A stretch of DNA of 64,000 nucleotides from an uncultured Bacteroidia bacterium (GTDB lineage Bacteria > Bacteroidota > Bacteroidia > Bacteroidales > F082). The stretch's first letter is position 1. Every line of letters starts with the position of its first letter. The position numbers and the translations under genes were made by a program. The stretch lies in assembly GCA_902770835.1 (NCBI GenBank), contig CACXUM010000019.1:1-64000 (forward strand), given 5' to 3'. Shown piece after piece: positions 1 to 61,442 of this stretch. The notes under the pieces were generated by a model. It saw nothing but the letters and a program-made list of their open reading frames with translations. It was not told the DNA's origin and did no database searches.

Positions 1-472
1 GAACAAGTCAATCAAAACCATCATCGCCTTGACGGCGCTTTTCGTCATCGGATTCCTCGCTTTGGAGGGATGCAACAAGAAAGAGGCTCGACAGCCCAAG
101 GTTTCCGGCTTCTTCGTTTCGGGATGCAACGACATCGTTCTCCATCGCGACAATGAACTGAATGACACGATTTACGTTACTGCCGTTGACGACACGAAGT
201 TGAAAATCAGCACTACAAATACGCCATTCAGTTGCGGCGTTGACACCATCCGACCTGAAATCCAAACGCAAGAACAAAACATCTCCATCGAACTGCTCTA
301 CGAAGATTCGTGGGCCGATTGCTTGTGCGGTCGCCATTTGGACATCATCATCGAAAACCTGAAGTTGAGACAAACCTACTCCGTCAGCATCAAGAAGGAC
401 GAGCGCGACTATTTCCAATTCGAGGTCACTTTTGGGCATGACACGAATTTGATGTTCGTCCGCGAACATTGA
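1..472 (+). CDS. Putative lipoprotein, cut by the window edge
   Basis: The frame is open from the first base. Base 1 is g, which would be the third base of an ATG lying across the window edge. This gives a start M-N-K-S-I-K followed by a hydrophobic stretch and the lipobox L-E-G-C (Cys about residue 25), a typical lipoprotein signal. The first start codon inside the window (TTG at 29) would remove the charged n-region, so it is unlikely to be the real start. The mature part is about 130 residues, acidic, with no family I recognise. It is probably exported and lipid-anchored. Function unknown. Confidence 0.6.
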   Translation, partial: NKSIKTIIALTALFVIGFLALEGCNKKEARQPKVSGFFVSGCNDIVLHRDNELNDTIYVTAVDDTKLKISTTNTPFSCGVDTIRPEIQTQEQNISIELLYEDSWADCLCGRHLDIIIENLKLRQTYSVSIKKDERDYFQFEVTFGHDTNLMFVREH

Positions 473-1647: not shown

Positions 1648-2531
1648 TGAGAGACCGATACTATAGCAAAGTCATCCTTTTCGGTGAGTATTCGATGATT
1701 TTCGATGCCACCGCGCTGATGATTCCGCTGAAACGCTTTTCGGCGCAATGGCAGTTTCCGCAAAGTCGGAATCTCGCTTCATCGCTTCCCTCCAACCATA
1801 GTTTGAAGCAGTTTTGCAAATATCTTTCTGAAAATCAAGAATTATCGAATCTCTTTGACTTTCAATCTTTTAATAAAGACTTGAACGAAGGTTTGTTCCT
1901 CGCTTCCAATGTGCCTTCGGGCTATGGTTTGGGCAGTTCGGGGACATTGGTGGCCGCCGTTTACGACCGTTACGCCATTCAAAAAAACAATGACTACCTG
2001 CAACTAAAATCGCTTTTCGGCCTGATGGAGAGCCATTTCCACGGAAGCAGCAGCGGCATCGACCCGTTGCAATGCTACCTTGGTAAGCCATTCAAAATCA
2101 CGCCTGAAGGAGTACAAATCCTTCCCGACGACTTTTTGAAAAAAGGTATCCATATCTGCCTGATTGACACGAAGATAAAGAGCAACACCAAGCCATTGGT
2201 CGAGCATTTCAAGGCGCAGCGCGAAAATCCTGATTTCTTGAATCGTTTCCAAACGATATATTTGCCCTGCGTCAAAACCTGCATTGAAGCGATGATTTCA
2301 GGCGATAATGTTATGTTTTTCAATTCGTTGAAACAACTTGCCCAAGGCCAATTGCAGTTCCTCCGCCCGATGATAACTGAAAACACGCTCGACCTTTTCA
2401 CGACCGATTTTGACTTTAATTTCGGTGTAAAAATCTCAGGCTCAGGCGGTGGCGGCTATGTTTTGGGCTTCACGGATGATGTGAAGAAAGCCACTGAATT
2501 GCTCAAGGATTTTGAGGTGATTTGGATTTGA
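1647..2531 (+). CDS. mvk: GHMP kinase, probable mevalonate kinase
   Basis: The 294-residue product is a GHMP-family small-molecule kinase. Its motifs are K-V-I-L-F-G-E-Y at about 8-15, the ATP-binding P-S-G-Y-G-L-G-S-S at about 90-98, S-S-G-I-D-P at about 135-140 (catalytic Asp region), and a C-terminal I-S-G-S-G-G-G-G near 269. The ATG at 1647 overlaps the mvaD stop by one base, and a longer reading from 1602 would run through mvaD, so 1647 is chosen. Pairing with mvaD points to mevalonate kinase (mevalonate to 5-phosphomevalonate). Phosphomevalonate kinase is the alternative, because GHMP paralogs are hard to separate by eye. Confidence 0.8.
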   Translation: MRDRYYSKVILFGEYSMIFDATALMIPLKRFSAQWQFPQSRNLASSLPSNHSLKQFCKYLSENQELSNLFDFQSFNKDLNEGLFLASNVPSGYGLGSSGTLVAAVYDRYAIQKNNDYLQLKSLFGLMESHFHGSSSGIDPLQCYLGKPFKITPEGVQILPDDFLKKGIHICLIDTKIKSNTKPLVEHFKAQRENPDFLNRFQTIYLPCVKTCIEAMISGDNVMFFNSLKQLAQGQLQFLRPMITENTLDLFTTDFDFNFGVKISGSGGGGYVLGFTDDVKKATELLKDFEVIWI

Positions 2532-2540
2532 TTTTGGTTT

Positions 2541-2648
2541 ATATTCAGCCGAATCAAGGTATTCTTATGCAATTGCGGCCAAATAAATACCTATATATTC
2601 AGCCGCATCGAAAAGTTTTTATATCTTTGCGGCCAAATATAGGACAAA
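2541..2648 (+). repeat. Two imperfect 54-bp tandem units over the ATPase promoter
   Basis: ATATTCAGCCG begins at 2541 and again at 2595, and TTGCGGCCAAATA begins at 2573 and again at 2627, an exact 54-base offset both times. The second unit carries the -7 box of the following gene. It looks like a duplicated promoter/operator segment. Confidence 0.75.
2622..2629 (+). promoter_or_regulatory. -7 box (TATCTTTG) of the ATPase gene
   Basis: TATCTTTG fits the Bacteroidota TAnnTTTG consensus, 22 bases before the ATG at 2652. It sits in the second 54-bp unit. No clear -33 box was seen. Confidence 0.6.
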
Positions 2649-2651
2649 AAA

Positions 2652-4094
2652 ATGTACAGAATCATTGGACGGAAGCAAGAAATTGAAGAACTTAACAATC
2701 TCTATAACAGTGGGAAAGCAGAGTTTGTCGCCGTTTATGGCCGTCGTCGTGTGGGCAAGACCTATCTCGTGAAAGAACTCTTTCAAAACAAAATGGCCTT
2801 TTATCACAGTGGGCTGTCGCCTTTCGACAAGGAACGCAAGATTGATATGCAAGACCAACTTGAGGCGTTTTATTCCAGTTTGACGCAACACGGTATGGCC
2901 GAGAGCAGTTGCCCGCAGTCGTGGATGGAGGCTTTCAGGATGTTGGGACGACTGCTTGACGAACTCGATGACGGCGGACGGCAAGTCATCTTTATCGACG
3001 AGTTGCCTTGGATGGATTCGCCCCGCTCCAAATTCTTGGTGGCTTTCGAGCATTTTTGGAACACATGGGGTGCGTGGCGCGACCGTGTGATGCTCATTGT
3101 TTGTGGCAGCGCAACTTCGTGGATGCTCGACAACCTCATTAATAACAAAGGTGGCCTCTACGACCGCCTGACTTGGCAAATCAAGTTGTCGCCGTTCACG
3201 TTGGCCGAGTGCAAGACATTTTTCAAGCGAAAAGGTATCGCCATGTCGGACTATGACATAGTGGAGGCATACATGATTTTCGGCGGCATACCTTACTATC
3301 TCAACTATTTCCAAAAAGGAAAAAGCCTTGCACAAAACGTTGATTTATTGTTGTTTGAAAGAAACGCGAAACTCGACATGGAGTTTCAACGGCTGTTTGG
3401 CTCGCTCTTTGTCAATCCAGAGGCGTATATGGCGGCGGTTAGGTTGCTCGCAAAAAAACACATCGGTTTCACGCGCATTGAGTTGGCCAAAAGTCTCGGC
3501 GTCAATCCGGGTGGAACGTTTAGCAAGATGCTCGAAACGCTTGCGGCCAGCGACTTCATCGAAAGTTATCACCCTTTCGGCCAAAGCAAAAAGGAAATCC
3601 GCTACAAACTCATTGACCCATTCTGCCGTTTTTATCTTAATTTCATTGATAACCAAAATATTACAGACCGCGCCTTTTGGCAACACAACCAAAACAAGCC
3701 ATCACTCAATGCTTGGCGAGGCATTACTTTCGAGCAAGTCTGCTTCGAACATGTCGGCCAAATCAAGCGTGCGTTGGGAGTTGAAAACGTGGCCTCGAAA
3801 GAATCGGCTTGGATTGTGCGCGGCGACAACGACCACAGCGGGACGCAAATCGACATGCTCATCGTGCGCGACGACCGCGTAGTCAACCTGTGCGAAATGA
3901 AGTTCCTCTCGAAAGAATACGAGCCGACTGCCGACGATGAGATGAAACTTCGAGCGAGAATCGCCACTTTGCAAGAGCAATTGTCGTTCAAGCAAGTCGT
4001 ACACCTGACTTTGGTGACAACGGTAAACCTGAAACACAACGCCCACAGCGGCGTGATTCAGCAAGTGGTGACTTTAGGCGCGTTATTCGCTTGA
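2652..4094 (+). CDS. STAND-type ATPase with C-terminal DUF234/PD-(D/E)XK-like domain
   Basis: 480 residues. The N-terminal half is a P-loop ATPase with Walker A G-R-R-R-V-G-K-T at about 30-37 and Walker B Q-V-I-F-I-D-E-L-P-W-M-D at about 111-122. A winged-helix-like middle follows. The C-terminal part has I-D-M-L-I-V-R-D-D-R-V then C-E-M-K-F (about 400-418), a D...ExK pattern like the nuclease-fold DUF234 domain. Such archaeal-type ATPases are common and mostly uncharacterised in Bacteroidota, and a role in stress or defence is inference. It is monocistronic, with a duplicated promoter segment upstream. It is one of four related ATPases in the window. Confidence 0.85.
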   Translation: MYRIIGRKQEIEELNNLYNSGKAEFVAVYGRRRVGKTYLVKELFQNKMAFYHSGLSPFDKERKIDMQDQLEAFYSSLTQHGMAESSCPQSWMEAFRMLGRLLDELDDGGRQVIFIDELPWMDSPRSKFLVAFEHFWNTWGAWRDRVMLIVCGSATSWMLDNLINNKGGLYDRLTWQIKLSPFTLAECKTFFKRKGIAMSDYDIVEAYMIFGGIPYYLNYFQKGKSLAQNVDLLLFERNAKLDMEFQRLFGSLFVNPEAYMAAVRLLAKKHIGFTRIELAKSLGVNPGGTFSKMLETLAASDFIESYHPFGQSKKEIRYKLIDPFCRFYLNFIDNQNITDRAFWQHNQNKPSLNAWRGITFEQVCFEHVGQIKRALGVENVASKESAWIVRGDNDHSGTQIDMLIVRDDRVVNLCEMKFLSKEYEPTADDEMKLRARIATLQEQLSFKQVVHLTLVTTVNLKHNAHSGVIQQVVTLGALFA

Positions 4095-10931: not shown

Positions 10932-12137
10932 TCAATAAGTCATTCCAAACATCCACAAGGGAATGCGGTTGCTAAAACCCACCTCGGTTTCGTCAACGGC
11001 AAGAAAACTGTCGGGAATGTCTTTGATTTGGTCGAAAGTCTTGTTCTTGCCGCCAACCTCAAACAGATAACGATCGTTGACCAAAAAGTCGCCTTTTTGC
11101 GGAAACTTCACTTCGTGTGCAACGCTCATTTGGCTGTTGAAAAACGTTTCCCGCTCGTTCCCGATTTCCACCGTGGGACACAACGTATGCATCAAATTGG
11201 GATTGTTGAGGAAAATCTTGTCGGGCTTGCTGAGGTATTTGTAACTTTTGGTCTTGGAAGTGAGCAGCGAAAGAATCTGCGCTTTGTCCAAAGAATATAG
11301 CATGCGAAGCCCTAATTCATTGTTGGTCGATAGTTGTTTCCACAATTCCGACATGTTAGGCTCGAAAGGCACATGCTCACTGATAATCATTAGCAAACGC
11401 TTGACTTTCAGAATGGTTTCGTAAGAAATGTTCTCCACAGCGGGCAGGTCGTTTTCGATGACCAAGGAAACGATTTCGCGCAAACGTATGGGAAAATCAT
11501 CGCCCACCTCGCGGTAAAACGGATAATAGCCGTGCTTCAAGTAAGCCTCGAACAAGGGAGCTACTTTGAGGTTCTTCGTGATTTTCATGGCCTGTTTGAC
11601 ATGGTCGCGAAGCAATGTCTCTATCGGGATGGGGCTGATATGGGCAACATCTTCAAAGTCAAGAAATTCGCGGAACGAAAGCCCGTAAAGCGTGTAAGGC
11701 GTTTGGCGGCGCGAAAGGTCAACCTTGGCATTGTCTATGGCAAGAAGCGAACTGCTGGTGTAAACGATGCCCATGTCGGGATAGTTGTCGTAGATGTTTT
11801 TCAGCGTTTCCGACCACGATTTGTAGCGGTGTACCTCATCAAGATAAAGTCTGCTGATGCCATGGCGGTCAGCCCAATCGACCAATTCCATCAAATTGTG
11901 CGAAGCAAACCAAAGGTCGTCGAGCGACACATATAGCGTTTGGTCAATATCTTCGTAGTTGTCAAGGATATGTTGCAACAACATGGTGGTTTTGCCAACA
12001 CCTCGCGCCCCTTTGATGCCAATCATCCGAGCCTTCCAGTTGATTTGGGAATAAAGATAGCGCTTGAATTTTAGGTCAACCTTGGCGATTTTGCGGTGAT
12101 AGTTGTCGAAAAGCGGTTGCACTTCAATGGTTTCCAT
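10932..12137 (-). CDS. AAA_14/DUF4143 ATPase
   Basis: About 401 residues: an AAA_14 P-loop domain with Walker A G-A-R-G-V-G-K-T and Walker B R-L-Y-L-D-E-V-H in the first third, T-S-S-S-L-L-A-I-D as a sensor region, and a C-terminal DUF4143 region. The ATG at 12137 is chosen because the upstream GTG at 12161 precedes the expected transcription start from the -7 box at 12164-12171. It is a paralog of the gene at 59706-60875 (same layout and similar ends, P-L-W-M-F-G against P-I-W-A-F-G). Function unknown. A DNA- or stress-related role is inference. Confidence 0.85.
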   Translation of the reverse strand: METIEVQPLFDNYHRKIAKVDLKFKRYLYSQINWKARMIGIKGARGVGKTTMLLQHILDNYEDIDQTLYVSLDDLWFASHNLMELVDWADRHGISRLYLDEVHRYKSWSETLKNIYDNYPDMGIVYTSSSLLAIDNAKVDLSRRQTPYTLYGLSFREFLDFEDVAHISPIPIETLLRDHVKQAMKITKNLKVAPLFEAYLKHGYYPFYREVGDDFPIRLREIVSLVIENDLPAVENISYETILKVKRLLMIISEHVPFEPNMSELWKQLSTNNELGLRMLYSLDKAQILSLLTSKTKSYKYLSKPDKIFLNNPNLMHTLCPTVEIGNERETFFNSQMSVAHEVKFPQKGDFLVNDRYLFEVGGKNKTFDQIKDIPDSFLAVDETEVGFSNRIPLWMFGMTY

Positions 12138-12159
12138 ACGCAATATAGTTTGATTTGAC

Positions 12160-12263
12160 ACTGCAAAAATACATATTTTTACATTTTAAACTGCAAAATT
12201 GTGCGAATTTTTATATTTTCAACTATAAAAATTAATCTTGTTTTTGCATTTCGAACCGTAAAA
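12160..12263 (-). repeat. Four degenerate ~31-bp units on the ATPase promoter
   Basis: ACTGCAAAA starts at 12160 and 12190, ACTATAAAA at 12222 and ACCGTAAAA at 12255 (spacing 30, 32, 33). The first unit includes the -7 box at 12164-12171 (TATTTTTG on the minus strand). The others look like decayed copies of the same box. Confidence 0.6.
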
Positions 12264-32736: not shown

Positions 32737-32985
32737 TTTCCCCAGCACCGCCCCATCCCTTGGAACGGCATACCAGTTAGCAGGCGACATCACTCACAGC
32801 GTATGACCATACGGCTGCCGCAAATAGTGAGATTCGACGACGTGAAACGTGGCAGACGCCCACCAACACATCGGCAGGAGTTCACACCGCCTGCCTGCAT
32901 TGCCGTCACCCCGTCGGGGTTCACCGCGTGCCCAAACAAAGTCACGGAGTGACGGTGGATATTAGGCAGGGGTGGAATGTAATGC

Positions 32986-33060
32986 AACCCCTGCCGAAAA
33001 AAAACGAAACCCTGTCGACAAAAAACACAACCCCTACCGAAAACAAACACATCCCTACCG
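32986..33060 (+). repeat. Four tandem ~22-bp repeats
   Basis: AACCCCTGCCGAAAA, AACCCTGTCGACAAA, AACCCCTACCGAAAA and ATCCCTACCG start at 32986, 33008, 33029 and 33051 (spacing 22, 21, 22). Confidence 0.7.
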
Positions 33061-33070
33061 ATTATCGTTC

Positions 33071-50388: not shown

Positions 50389-50403
50389 CTGCGTATTCGT
50401 ATC

Positions 50404-50464
50404 ATCATTTTATTTTTATGATGAAATTTTTATCATTTTTTTAGCATGATAACAATAAAATGAT
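50404..50464 (+). repeat. Five ATSAT elements at exact 14-base spacing
   Basis: ATCAT or ATGAT begins at 50404, 50418, 50432, 50446 and 50460, every 14 bases (with an extra ATCAT at 50401). The array ends at the -7 box 50465-50472. Inverted arms TCATTTTATT and AATAAAATGA span most of it. Confidence 0.75.
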
Positions 50465-50472
50465 TATCTTTG
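50465..50472 (+). promoter_or_regulatory. -7 box of the ATPase gene
   Basis: TATCTTTG, 17 bases before ATG 50490. The ATG at 50460 is upstream of it and is rejected as the start. Confidence 0.6.
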
Positions 50473-50489: not shown

Positions 50490-51608
50490 ATGATTTACAA
50501 TCCTTTCATCACATCGGGTTATGTTTCGCCCGAATACTTTTGCGACCGCGAAAACGAAACACGACAGTTGGTTCAAAACATACAGGGACACAGCCACACG
50601 GTGCTTATCTCGCCGCGCCGCATGGGCAAGACAGGCCTCATCGAGCATTGCTTCAACCAAGAAGTCATCAAAAACGATTACCACACGTTTTTCCTCGACA
50701 TCTACTCCACCATGAACCTCAATGATTTCGTGTTTCTGTTGGGCAACCGAATTTGCAGAAGTTTGAAAACCAAAGACAAGCAATTGATGGAAATGTTTGT
50801 CAAAGTGGTGAAATCCATCCAATTCACTATCGGTTTTGACGAGGCTGGGATGATGAACGGTTCTTTCGGCCTCGGCGACATCAAGGATTCACAAAAGTCG
50901 TTGGAAGAGATTTTCCAATATTTGGAGGAAGCCAAACGGCCTTGCGTGGTGGCCATCGACGAGTTCCAGCAGATTGAAAAATACCCGGAAAAGAACGTGG
51001 AGGCCCTGCTGCGCACTTATATCCAGCATTGCAACAATGCCACTTTCATCTTTGCGGGCAGTCAGCGGCATATCATCCAAAACATGTTTGCTTCGGCATC
51101 CAAACCATTCTACAACAGTTCGAACATGATGAGCCTCGCCCCTATCGCAAAGGAAAAATATGTCGAGTTTGCCGTGCGAATGTTCGCCATTTTTGGAAAA
51201 GTGTGTGCTCCAGAATATATTGACAATCTGTATGATACCTTGGAAGGCCACACTTGGTATATGCAGGCGGTGCTATATTTGGCATTTTACATGACAGACA
51301 AAAAATGTTCACCAACCATAATTAATGAGGCGTTGATAAAGCGAGTCACCGACAATGAGGATGTCTTTGAATCCATGTATTACGGGTTGAGCGAAAGGCA
51401 ACGCTCGACACTGAAAGCCGTTGCCGCCGAAGGCAAGGCCAAACAAACGCAGTCGGTGGCGTTCATCAAGAAATACGGCCTGACCTCAGCAAGTTCGGTG
51501 CAGTCGGCCATTCGCCAGCTGATGGACAAGGATTTGGTGACGACAGAGAAAGGTTCCTATCGTGTTGACGACCGTTTCTTCGGGTTTTGGCTGAAGAATC
51601 AACTGTAA
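50490..51608 (+). CDS. AAA/STAND ATPase
   Basis: 372 residues. Walker A S-P-R-R-M-G-K-T near 41-48, Walker B V-V-A-I-D-E-F-Q-Q near 153-161, G-S-Q-R-H sensor near 190-194, and a winged-helix C-terminus (R-Q-R-S-T-L-K-A-V-A, then S-S-V-Q-S-A-I-R-Q-L). It belongs to the archaeal-type AAA ATPase group related to AAA_14 and DUF234 proteins. Monocistronic between two hairpin terminators. No partner gene is visible, so its function is unknown. Confidence 0.82.
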   Translation: MIYNPFITSGYVSPEYFCDRENETRQLVQNIQGHSHTVLISPRRMGKTGLIEHCFNQEVIKNDYHTFFLDIYSTMNLNDFVFLLGNRICRSLKTKDKQLMEMFVKVVKSIQFTIGFDEAGMMNGSFGLGDIKDSQKSLEEIFQYLEEAKRPCVVAIDEFQQIEKYPEKNVEALLRTYIQHCNNATFIFAGSQRHIIQNMFASASKPFYNSSNMMSLAPIAKEKYVEFAVRMFAIFGKVCAPEYIDNLYDTLEGHTWYMQAVLYLAFYMTDKKCSPTIINEALIKRVTDNEDVFESMYYGLSERQRSTLKAVAAEGKAKQTQSVAFIKKYGLTSASSVQSAIRQLMDKDLVTTEKGSYRVDDRFFGFWLKNQL

Positions 51609-59634: not shown

Positions 59635-59703
59635 CTTGTAGGGCTGTCGTACCACGGCAGCCGTCTGAAAAAAACGGCTGCCACGATGTGACAGTCCTAC
59701 AAG
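59635..59703. terminator. Large imperfect hairpin between convergent genes
   Basis: 30-base arms beginning CTTGTAGG and ending CCTACAAG, with inner GGCAGCCGT and ACGGCTGCC and about seven mismatches. It closes both the 57318 gene and the 59706 gene. Related to the hairpin at 22176-22202. Confidence 0.7.
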
Positions 59704-59705
59704 CA

Positions 59706-60875
59706 TCAATAATTCAGCCCGAAAGCCCAAATGGGAATCACATTGCCGTAGCCATATTCGATGTCGTCCTTCACTACATAGCCTTCCCTTGCATCGGTAA
59801 TCTGTTTCTTTCCCTTGCTCTTCCCGCCCACCTCAAAAGTCTTACCCTGAACCTCAAAATCGGAAATGGGCGACGACACAACTTTATGATTTACACGCAT
59901 TTGGTTGAGGAAAAAAGTTTCCCGCAGCGTTCCCGCATCTTCCTGGCCTTCACCTAAATTGTACATCAGATTCGTGTTGTCCAAATACACTTTCTCCACT
60001 TTTCCGAGCTCGCCCAAGCCACCTGTCCCGTCGCGCAATTGGGCCAACAAGCCCGCTTTTTCCATATAAACAAGGTAATCCTCCACATTGTTTCTGCTGG
60101 CCTGAATCTGGCTTCCCAAACTTGACATATTGGGCTTGTAAGGCACCAATCCGGCAATAATCGCCATCAGTTTTTTCAGTTTTCTTGCCGTACCGATGTT
60201 CATGCCTGCAAACTGCGGAATGTCGACTTCAATCGTTCTTGTAATCACCTGACTCAACTCTGTTTCAAAGTCAAGGTCTTGACTGAAAGGGTAATAGCCT
60301 TCTTTCAAATACTGCTTGAAATACACCAAAGGATGGCTTACACCCGGAATTTTCGCTTCATGGTTCAAGATTTGCTCCATGCTTAAAACGGGCGTTTCAA
60401 TGTGGTGCCGAATGGCCAAAAATTCACGGAACGACAAACCTTGCATCATGTATTTCGGTGCCCGCCGACTCAGGTCGGCCTCGCCTTTCTCGATGTCGAG
60501 GATGGACGAACCCGTGAAATAAACATGCAAGTCGGGAAACGAATCGTACATCAGTTTCAGTTCCTGCGACCAATTGGCATATTTGTGTACCTCATCGATA
60601 AACAAAAACTTTCCGCCGTTTTTATTGAAACTTTCCGCCATTTCATACAAGCTGTAGGTCGAAAAATACAGGTGATCCGCCGTCACATACAACGTGTCGT
60701 GAAGTGAATGGCACTTTTTGATGTGCTGAAGAAACAGCGTCGTTTTGCCCACGCCTCTTGGTCCGACCAAGCCCAACATGCGGTTATTCCATTGAATGTC
60801 AGCATACTTGTAACGGACAAACTCGCTCGTTGTCGTGTCAAGTTGCTTCTGCATAAACTCATACAACTTTTCCAT
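59706..60875 (-). CDS. AAA_14/DUF4143 ATPase (paralog of 10932-12137)
   Basis: 389 residues. Walker A G-P-R-G-V-G-K-T near 37-44, Walker B F-L-F-I-D-E-V-H-K near 88-96, sensor-like T-G-S-S-I-L-D-I near 117-124, then a DUF4143 C-terminal region with E-G-Y-Y-P-F-S. It shares length and layout with the ATPase at 10932, so the two are paralogs. Function unknown. The -7 box (TAATTTTG on the minus strand) is at 60896-60903, directly below the iterated repeats at 60910-60992. Confidence 0.85.
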   Translation of the reverse strand: MEKLYEFMQKQLDTTTSEFVRYKYADIQWNNRMLGLVGPRGVGKTTLFLQHIKKCHSLHDTLYVTADHLYFSTYSLYEMAESFNKNGGKFLFIDEVHKYANWSQELKLMYDSFPDLHVYFTGSSILDIEKGEADLSRRAPKYMMQGLSFREFLAIRHHIETPVLSMEQILNHEAKIPGVSHPLVYFKQYLKEGYYPFSQDLDFETELSQVITRTIEVDIPQFAGMNIGTARKLKKLMAIIAGLVPYKPNMSSLGSQIQASRNNVEDYLVYMEKAGLLAQLRDGTGGLGELGKVEKVYLDNTNLMYNLGEGQEDAGTLRETFFLNQMRVNHKVVSSPISDFEVQGKTFEVGGKSKGKKQITDAREGYVVKDDIEYGYGNVIPIWAFGLNY

Positions 60876-60909
60876 TTTGCATTAATTTGACACCGCAAAA
60901 TTACTAAAA

Positions 60910-60992
60910 TTGCACTGTGTGAGTGCAATTTTCTCAATTTTTTGCACTATGAGAGTGCATTTTCTCAGCTTTTTTGCACTATGAGAGTGCAA
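60910..60992 (-). repeat. Three 32-bp iterated palindromic repeats
   Basis: TTGCACT-N5-AGTGCA(A/T) begins at 60910, 60942 and 60974, exactly 32 bases apart. Two of the three cores are perfect palindromes (arms TTGCACT and AGTGCAA). The array lies just upstream of the -7 box of the ATPase gene. A strong candidate operator or iteron set. Confidence 0.8.
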
Positions 60993-60995
60993 TTT

Positions 60996-61442
60996 TTACG
61001 ATAATTCCGCTTTCACTTCGGTATTTGATAAGGCTCTCGCGATGATTTGTGCATGGTCGAAGGCCAAATCGGGCAGACGGTTGAGGGCAAACCATTGCGC
61101 CTTGGCTGCATCGTCGCCGCCAACGGCTTTTTGTTGGGTGTCGTCAACACCCCAATAGGCCACGCTGACGGTGCGGTGACGCGGATCGCGGTCGATGGCA
61201 CCGAAAGCGTACAATTGGTGCAATTCGATGCCCGTCAGACCCGTTTCTTCTTGCAGTTCACGCGCCGCACAGGTGTCCAAGTCCTCTTCCATCTCCAAAA
61301 AACCGCCCGGCAAAGCCCAACAACCCTTGAAAGGCTCTTTGCCCCGCTCGATGAGGAGCAAATGCCAAACACATTCTATCTTCTTGAAAATCAAACAATC
61401 AGTTGTAACACACGGACGCGGATAATTGTAAGTGAAACTCAT
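60996..61442 (-). CDS. NUDIX hydrolase
   Basis: 148 residues with a complete Nudix box G-G-F-L-E-M-E-E-D-L then A-A-R-E-L-Q-E-E-T-G-L at about 46-69. Such proteins hydrolyse nucleoside diphosphate derivatives. The best match in the family is the ADP-ribose/NAD-type branch often annotated in Bacteroidota, but the substrate is not certain. It lies just upstream of the repeat array and shares its strand with the ATPase. Confidence 0.88.
   Translation of the reverse strand: MSFTYNYPRPCVTTDCLIFKKIECVWHLLLIERGKEPFKGCWALPGGFLEMEEDLDTCAARELQEETGLTGIELHQLYAFGAIDRDPRHRTVSVAYWGVDDTQQKAVGGDDAAKAQWFALNRLPDLAFDHAQIIARALSNTEVKAELS

Follow-up and report, generated by a model that had tools for sequence, protein, structure and literature searches.

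The locus considered here raises the question of what an array of short palindromes is doing in front of a single ATPase gene, and which protein reads it. It lies in a 64,000-nucleotide stretch of contig CACXUM010000019.1 (hereafter the window) from an uncultured Bacteroidia bacterium. Three unstranded palindromes of the form TTGCACT-N5-AGTGCA begin at positions 60910, 60942 and 60974, at spacings of 32 and 32 exactly as a preliminary description of this DNA had reported: one unit closest to the promoter (60910-60928, TTGCACT-GTGTG-AGTGCAA), a second 32 nt further on (60942-60959, TTGCACT-ATGAG-AGTGCA) and a third after another 32 nt (60974-60992, TTGCACT-ATGAG-AGTGCAA). A -7 box had been placed at 60896-60903, and TAATTTTG indeed stands there on the minus strand; it is a -7 box of the Bacteroidetes type, the motif of which is TAnnTTTG. 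The array takes up the interval between the start of the ATPase gene (60875) and the upstream NUDIX open reading frame on the same strand (ending at 60996), receives the highest Tandem Repeats Finder score of the 41 repeats in the window (139) and reaches a z of 18.9 against dinucleotide shuffles in our upstream self-similarity score. The exact core TGCACT-N5-AGTGCA has three sites in the 3.26-Mb assembly, which is 85.8% complete, and all three are within this array. The gene itself (59706-60875, minus strand; characterized with Pfam, PADLOC, AlphaFold2 and Foldseek) encodes a 389-residue AAA_14 ATPase with a sub-threshold DUF4143 match and a match to PADLOC system PDC-S01. Directly 3' of it, at 59637-59705, is a REP-like element, a palindrome of the GTAGGACTGTCAC/GTACGACAGCCCTAC type with many matches in congeners. 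Elsewhere in the window, at 32985-33061, there is a separate tandem repeat of 21-22 nt (about 3.4 copies) without such an ATPase gene beside it.

Iterated promoters had also been proposed for the three other ATPase genes of the window, with periods of 54, about 31 and 14 nt, and the first two of these were recovered. The gene at 2652-4094 (plus strand; Pfam, PADLOC), which encodes an ATPase_2-type ATPase of 480 residues matching PADLOC PDC-S27 over its full length, is preceded at 2540-2639 by two 46-nt units 54 nt apart (z 12.8), the second of which contains a -7 box, TATCTTTG, at 2622-2629. The gene at 10932-12137 (minus strand; Pfam, PADLOC PDC-S01), encoding an AAA_14 ATPase of 401 residues, is preceded at 12145-12263 by four imperfect 24-nt units with spacings of 30, 32 and 33 (z 5.5), and its -7 box was placed by sequence at 12164-12171 on the minus strand. 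The fourth gene (50490-51608, plus strand) encodes an outlying ATPase_2 protein in Pfam with a partial AAA_14 match, and here the proposed direct array of period 14 found no support. Scored from 50490, the upstream region gives a direct z of 1.9, with a best distance of 28, and an inverted z of 4.4, so that an inverted repeat is supported and the direct array is not; the imperfect inverted repeat spans the promoter at 50401-50467, with arms at 50401-50423 and 50445-50467. From the in-frame ATG at 50460, the direct and inverted values are 0.5 and 3.0.

How general such arrays are was determined across the source genome. An AAA_14 profile matched 92 genes, 85 of them above the family cut-off, and because the 92 include ATPases from outside the family, such as MgsA, we put the family at about 85 genes. 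For each of the 92, the 190 nt 5' of the gene were scored for self-similarity against dinucleotide shuffles; 129 genes served as controls, and 18 of these that share an upstream region with an ATPase gene were set aside to leave 111 clean controls. Repeats at z > 3 lie upstream of 81 of the 92 matches (median z 8.4) and of 78 of the 85 genes above the cut-off, compared with 30 of the 129 controls and 17 of the 111 clean ones (clean median 1.2). When classes are taken by rank order in the AAA_14 search, and not by per-gene domain calls, the fractions at z > 3 are 46/50 for numbers 0-49 (the AAA_14/DUF4143 class), 7/7 for 50-56, 25/28 for 57-84 and 3/7 for 85-91. Family members often adjoin one another (in genome G000, at C14:46899/47649/48992, C75:371/1216, C1:41226/42043 and C26:27549/28571), several of them head to head over one intergenic region.

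The units are largely private to the genes that they precede. Of the matches given by 533 repeated 12-mers from 47 genes, 1,463 fall in the genes' own regions and 69 in DNA flanking other AAA_14 genes; a further 90 are scattered elsewhere over 0.49 Mb, a length in which chance alone would yield about 31. The units differ between genes, though not absolutely. The housekeeping gene MgsA/RarA (L154:8678-9961, minus strand; G000 C5:17538) carries two TTTCTGCTTTCCAAAGCATAAA-type units of the unlinked ATPase gene C13:51147, and its array may be a relic or a sign of cross-regulation. Upstream of gene C4:50722 (locus L007), the array reaches to about 700 nt with many ATTCCCCAA-type copies, much further than the others seen. 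Strong promoter repeats were also seen at a gene that reads by sequence as AbiEi-antitoxin-like (L121:330-479; direct z 13.8, inverted z 6.2).

Within the AAA_14 class, and likewise in other phyla, the pitch of the repeats is conserved and the sequence of the unit is not. Of the 50 AAA_14/DUF4143-class genes, 37 have a best period of 31-34 nt, compared with 3 of the 111 clean controls and 60 of 920 shuffles, and distances of exactly 32 (15 genes) and 33 (23 genes), together with their doubles at 64-66, dominate this class, whereas exact distances of 32 or 33 nt average 0.0 in shuffles. Thus, the assertion that ordinary genes are free of arrays is correct on average and wrong as an absolute, given the clean controls that exceed z > 3 and the three with this period; likewise, a period of 32-33 is a feature of the AAA_14 class but not of the ATPase_2 class, where a period of 31-34 occurs in 4 of 28 genes and a few genes are at 53-54. 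It occurs in none of the 7 genes of a group of 430-residue proteins. In the family of the 59706 gene, represented by the window gene and 66 of 70 homologous loci in other genomes (some near-identical; L069, L088 and L104 were dropped, as was L075 for missing upstream DNA), 49 of 67 members have a best period of 31-34, and 46 of 67 exceed z > 3, a level reached by 19 of 108 control genes from the neighbourhood; 21 of the 67 are without repeats at that threshold. Among 30 loci from other phyla, drawn from five genomes (Adlercreutzia, two Deltaproteobacteria, a Binatia and 'Bacterium BMS3Abin15'), the best period is 32-34 in 15, some of these without a significant z, and z > 3 is reached in 16 and not in the other 14; three of these loci, L232, L236 and L241, are also among the 70 homologous loci, and two of them are counted in the 67. 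A Bacteroidota-wide sample gave z > 3 in 15 of 28 loci and not in 13, and plasmid examples, hand-picked for breadth as 15 of 60 listed, gave it in 8 and not in 7. Among the latter, a period of 32 with different units was found in the Treponema, Methanosphaera and Methanomethylovorans examples and was not seen in the two haloarchaeal examples. The 2652-type plasmid genes of Butyrivibrio (Bacillota, L210) and Emticicia (Bacteroidota, L224) have a common TTGGCGGAAT...ATTCCGCCAA inverted repeat upstream. A Rayleigh value for helical phase was also computed; as it ignores the relatedness of the genes, it is not taken as proof.

Gene and array travel and change together. Close homologs of the 59706 gene retain the TGCACT...AGTGCA array amid differing surrounding DNA, and a homolog in Adlercreutzia (Actinomycetota), at 63% protein identity, retains the same unit. 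In pairs with 55-90% protein identity, the proximal upstream region has a median score of 16-28, compared with 8-11 for downstream and further upstream DNA. Where both flanks differ (111 homolog pairs), similarity stops close to the stop codon, at -4 to +6 nt from it, in 91 pairs; at the other end, it starts inside the gene in 58 pairs and extends 5' of the ATG in 53, ending in 47 of these 53 at 67-153 nt before the ATG, in the array region. Across 66 proteins, protein similarity correlates with array similarity (Mantel rho 0.45, p 0.001), against control values of 0.10 for downstream and 0.06 for far-upstream DNA; among 89 paralogs of the source genome, the protein-operator correlation, though significant, is weak (rho 0.12, p 0.0005). 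The period is kept, and the units are unrelated and change as the proteins diverge, a pattern that fits the earlier suggestion, made from the sequence, of a shared but diversified mode of self-regulation or of a DNA target for each ATPase. Two outcomes had been named as speaking against that suggestion, arrays of equal frequency before unrelated genes and a lack of conservation in close relatives; in fact, control promoters lie far below the family, and the arrays are conserved in relatives with unrelated flanks. Within the protein, the stretch of the putative recognition helix ranks 16-35 of 371 windows, across settings, for association with operator change, and window 261-279 ranks first among 35 non-redundant members. 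AAA+ stretches at about 19-48 and 114-150 score equally or higher in several settings, and since the recognition helix is high but not alone in the ranking, specificity at the level of residues is suggestive only.

What kind of protein stands behind these arrays? Pfam assigns AAA_14 with DUF4143, or ATPase_2, with DUF234 added in one tested case, and NCBIfam has no family for the four window proteins. PADLOC was run on the window genes and a 20-gene sample: PDC-S01 matches the 59706 gene (E 3e-27), the 10932 gene (E 9e-23) and, weakly, the 50490 gene (E 3e-6), and PDC-S27 matches residues 1-479 of the 2652 product (E 4e-193). All 10 genes sampled from numbers 0-49 match PDC-S01, all 6 sampled ATPase_2-class genes match PDC-S27, and over the whole sample the two models match 19 of 20 AAA_14-matching genes strongly, the miss being MgsA. 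According to the available passages of PMC12988326, PDC-S01 and PDC-S27 are phage-defence candidates in which an ATPase is fused to PD-(D/E)XK, PDC-S01 ranking fourth in frequency among prokaryotic defence systems and validation being pending for most such candidates; in the accessible part of a rumen survey, PDC-S01 is the most frequent individual locus (PMC13356809). The AlphaFold2 model of the 59706 protein (pLDDT 90) has an AAA+ domain and a C-terminal mixed PD-(D/E)XK-like domain, and from the order of helices and sheets in that model we read a putative winged helix at about residues 227-299; residues 264-317 weakly match an ORC4 profile (E 7e-4). In sequence-profile searches of the PDB, the top matches of this protein are RecA P-loops, and a PDB sequence search with the 2652 protein returned no match at E 0.01. 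Foldseek places SSO1545 (2fna) first at a TM of 0.46, followed by RuvB and a chain of an ORC-Cdc6 complex, with the apoptosome and Avs4 (rank 24, TM 0.39) lower; the other matches listed have TM values of 0.24-0.39, and all are partial. A nuclease motif that we assign as E-D-E-K is present in most of the family: each residue is conserved at 1.00 in 26 aligned ATPase_2-class proteins, and in 48 aligned AAA_14-class proteins the values are E 1.00, D 1.00, E 0.90 and K 0.73. In the 59706 subfamily, the motif is altered to E-V-G-G-x-x-K, with K354 invariant in 48 sequences and the ExK lysine not found at its canonical place in them, and nuclease activity is uncertain for this subfamily.

Together, these data make it probable that each array is a private operator bound by the ATPase of its own gene, with cognate autorepression as the outcome. 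Of 41 genes scored, 35 have units that overlap the core promoter; coverage by units is about 0.7-0.8 at -60 to -20 relative to the -7 box and lowest, at 0.24, over the box itself, and in the AAA_14 class the units extend across the -33 region as far as the -7 box, so that the predicted binding would shut off RNA polymerase. The protein, with its AAA+, putative winged-helix and PD-(D/E)XK-like domains, would oligomerize on the repeated units of its own gene along a single face of the DNA, an arrangement suggested by the helical phasing: in the AAA_14/DUF4143 class, the bound sites would be 32-33 bp, or three helical turns, apart. Autorepression would keep a nuclease-type ATPase low until a presumed trigger calls for it, with the nuclease as the probable effector and a role in defence suggested. 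As protein and operator diversify together, dozens of paralogs could coexist with little cross-talk. Against the operator reading, repeats at z > 3 are absent in many relatives, few genes of the ATPase_2 class have the 31-34 period, the protein-operator correlation among the paralogs of the source genome is weak and the fold matches are partial; against autorepression in particular, there are units downstream of genes that have no obvious role there.

These downstream units deserve attention, because they occur at many genes and regulation at the promoter alone is therefore an insufficient explanation. Of 90 genes (2 of the 92 were without enough flank), 28 have their own upstream unit again within 180 nt past the stop codon, where mismatched pairs predict 0.76. 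By class, this holds for 17/28 of the ATPase_2/DUF234 class, 11/48 of the AAA_14 class and 0/7 of each of two other groups, one of them the group of 430-residue proteins. In congener G022, the own unit recurs downstream in 14 of 20 genes, picked from low-scoring matches, against 7 of 380 mismatched pairs; in the 15 plasmid examples from other groups, none has it beyond shuffles. A broader but tentative possibility, to which we give considerably less weight than to the operator itself, is that each gene is a self-addressed unit, one protein with private phased sites that it alone recognises, flanking it on one or both sides and spreading between species and phyla; the sites would then be both operator and element ends, or a mark of self and non-self for the nuclease, and a single genome could hold dozens of such genes, every address being orthogonal.

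The main rival, which is also a possible extension of the operator reading, is narrower and in our estimation somewhat less likely still: the genes would be single-gene mobile elements whose private units are terminal sites bound and cut by their own AAA+/PD-(D/E)XK protein, with promoter control as a by-product. Iterons and transposon ends are analogues. Besides the downstream units and the intact E-D-E-K motif of all 26 aligned ATPase_2-class proteins, this reading draws on presence and absence among six congeners. The element at C14:73394 is present in G018 and missing, together with both arrays, from G019, G021 and G022, and the 50490 gene is absent in G019 and G021 and present in G018 and G022. 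At the C14:73394 site, G016 and G014 hold other DNA; in G014 (L194, C448, about 1850-3690), this intergenic site is occupied by an acyltransferase-like gene, which marks the place as a possible hotspot of gene gain. G022 contains a relative of element C27:25730 (94% identical in protein) whose left flank is unrelated, and the strong similarity starts and stops within palindromic units; a weaker colinear match on the right (66.5%) means, however, that the right neighbour may be the same. Comparison with G022 covered five near-identical or close pairs, and in two of them (C13:65682 and C54:3297) the left flank alone differs. Reading the sequences at the empty sites of two elements revealed neither a target-site duplication nor exact ends; a 4-5 nt duplication that BLAST coordinates had suggested was absent from these sequences and was rejected. 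Active transposition should leave a set of copies with the same unit inside the genome, and there is none: the core is confined to one locus and the 12-mers are largely private. In the 59706 family, moreover, the shared block normally reaches no further than the stop codon, with no distal array beyond it, and the downstream unit is missing from the plasmid examples and the 430-residue group. Viral contigs number five for the 59706 family, and none was found for the 2652 protein. The downstream units and the presence or absence of genes could thus fit a mobile cassette without proving one.

Three further explanations were considered. That other host proteins or regulators bind them, the ATPase being merely the regulated gene, is improbable, although the foreign units before MgsA/RarA demonstrate that an array can precede a gene not encoding its reader; the units change with the ATPase protein, gene and array are kept together in an actinobacterium, and, as most examined genes have their own unit, dozens of dedicated regulators would be needed. 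Still harder to maintain is an action in RNA, through hairpins or attenuation in 5' leaders: many units are palindromic and 9 of the 41 scored genes have units in the interval from the -7 box to the ATG, but most coverage is upstream of the -7 box and hence outside the expected transcript, and many other units are direct and non-palindromic and are kept at 32-33 bp, which fits DNA. Neutral tandem repeats that slippage during replication would leave in A+T-rich DNA between genes, for which the clean controls at z > 3 might speak, have next to no probability and were rejected, as the 32-33 pitch is missing from controls and shuffles and recurs in other phyla, and units persist where the flanks are gone.

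The reading of the arrays as private operators has several partial precedents. Initiators that bind iterons or ORB elements (plasmid Rep proteins and archaeal Orc1/Cdc6) combine AAA+ and winged-helix domains and have phased iterated sites beside their own gene; the present family resembles them in predicted domain make-up, in phased sites and in a partial fold similarity of the ATPase to ORC/Cdc6 and SSO1545, but it adds a PD-(D/E)XK domain and its unit sequence varies by paralog. In the type IV toxin-antitoxin system AbiE, the antitoxin represses through inverted repeats, which likewise places such repeats at the promoter of a defence-type gene; AbiE, however, has two genes, no ATPase and no diversified arrays. 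STAND NTPases such as Avs4 share a related NTPase fold, whereas the present ATPases lack large sensor repeats and are single proteins of 390-480 residues with private DNA sites. Plasmid RepA proteins 'specifically autorepress individual repABC operons', according to the part of PMC4492784 available, and thus also offer several related regulators per genome, each on its own operon; they belong to the ParA family and serve plasmids, unlike the about 85 single genes described here, which are mostly on contigs not known to be plasmids and have predicted winged-helix and nuclease-type domains. As for PDC-S01 and PDC-S27, three of the four window genes match them strongly and the make-up of ATPase and PD-(D/E)XK is the same; the available passages of PMC12988326 contain no mention of private arrays. 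In the portions of the open-access literature covered, we found no description of such arrays. Autoregulatory operators and iterons are already known; what is new, to our knowledge, is a bacterial and archaeal family in which most tested members combine a sequence of their own with a fixed pitch.

For most paralogs of this genome, the arrays predict from the genome alone the DNA that each protein should bind, and with the target predicted, regulation, specificity and activation become testable at once. From the pitch of 32-33 bp, which recurs across several bacterial phyla and in two of the plasmid examples from archaea, one would expect a defined oligomer on the DNA. The family would also supply a natural set of DNA-binding regulators that are largely orthogonal to one another.
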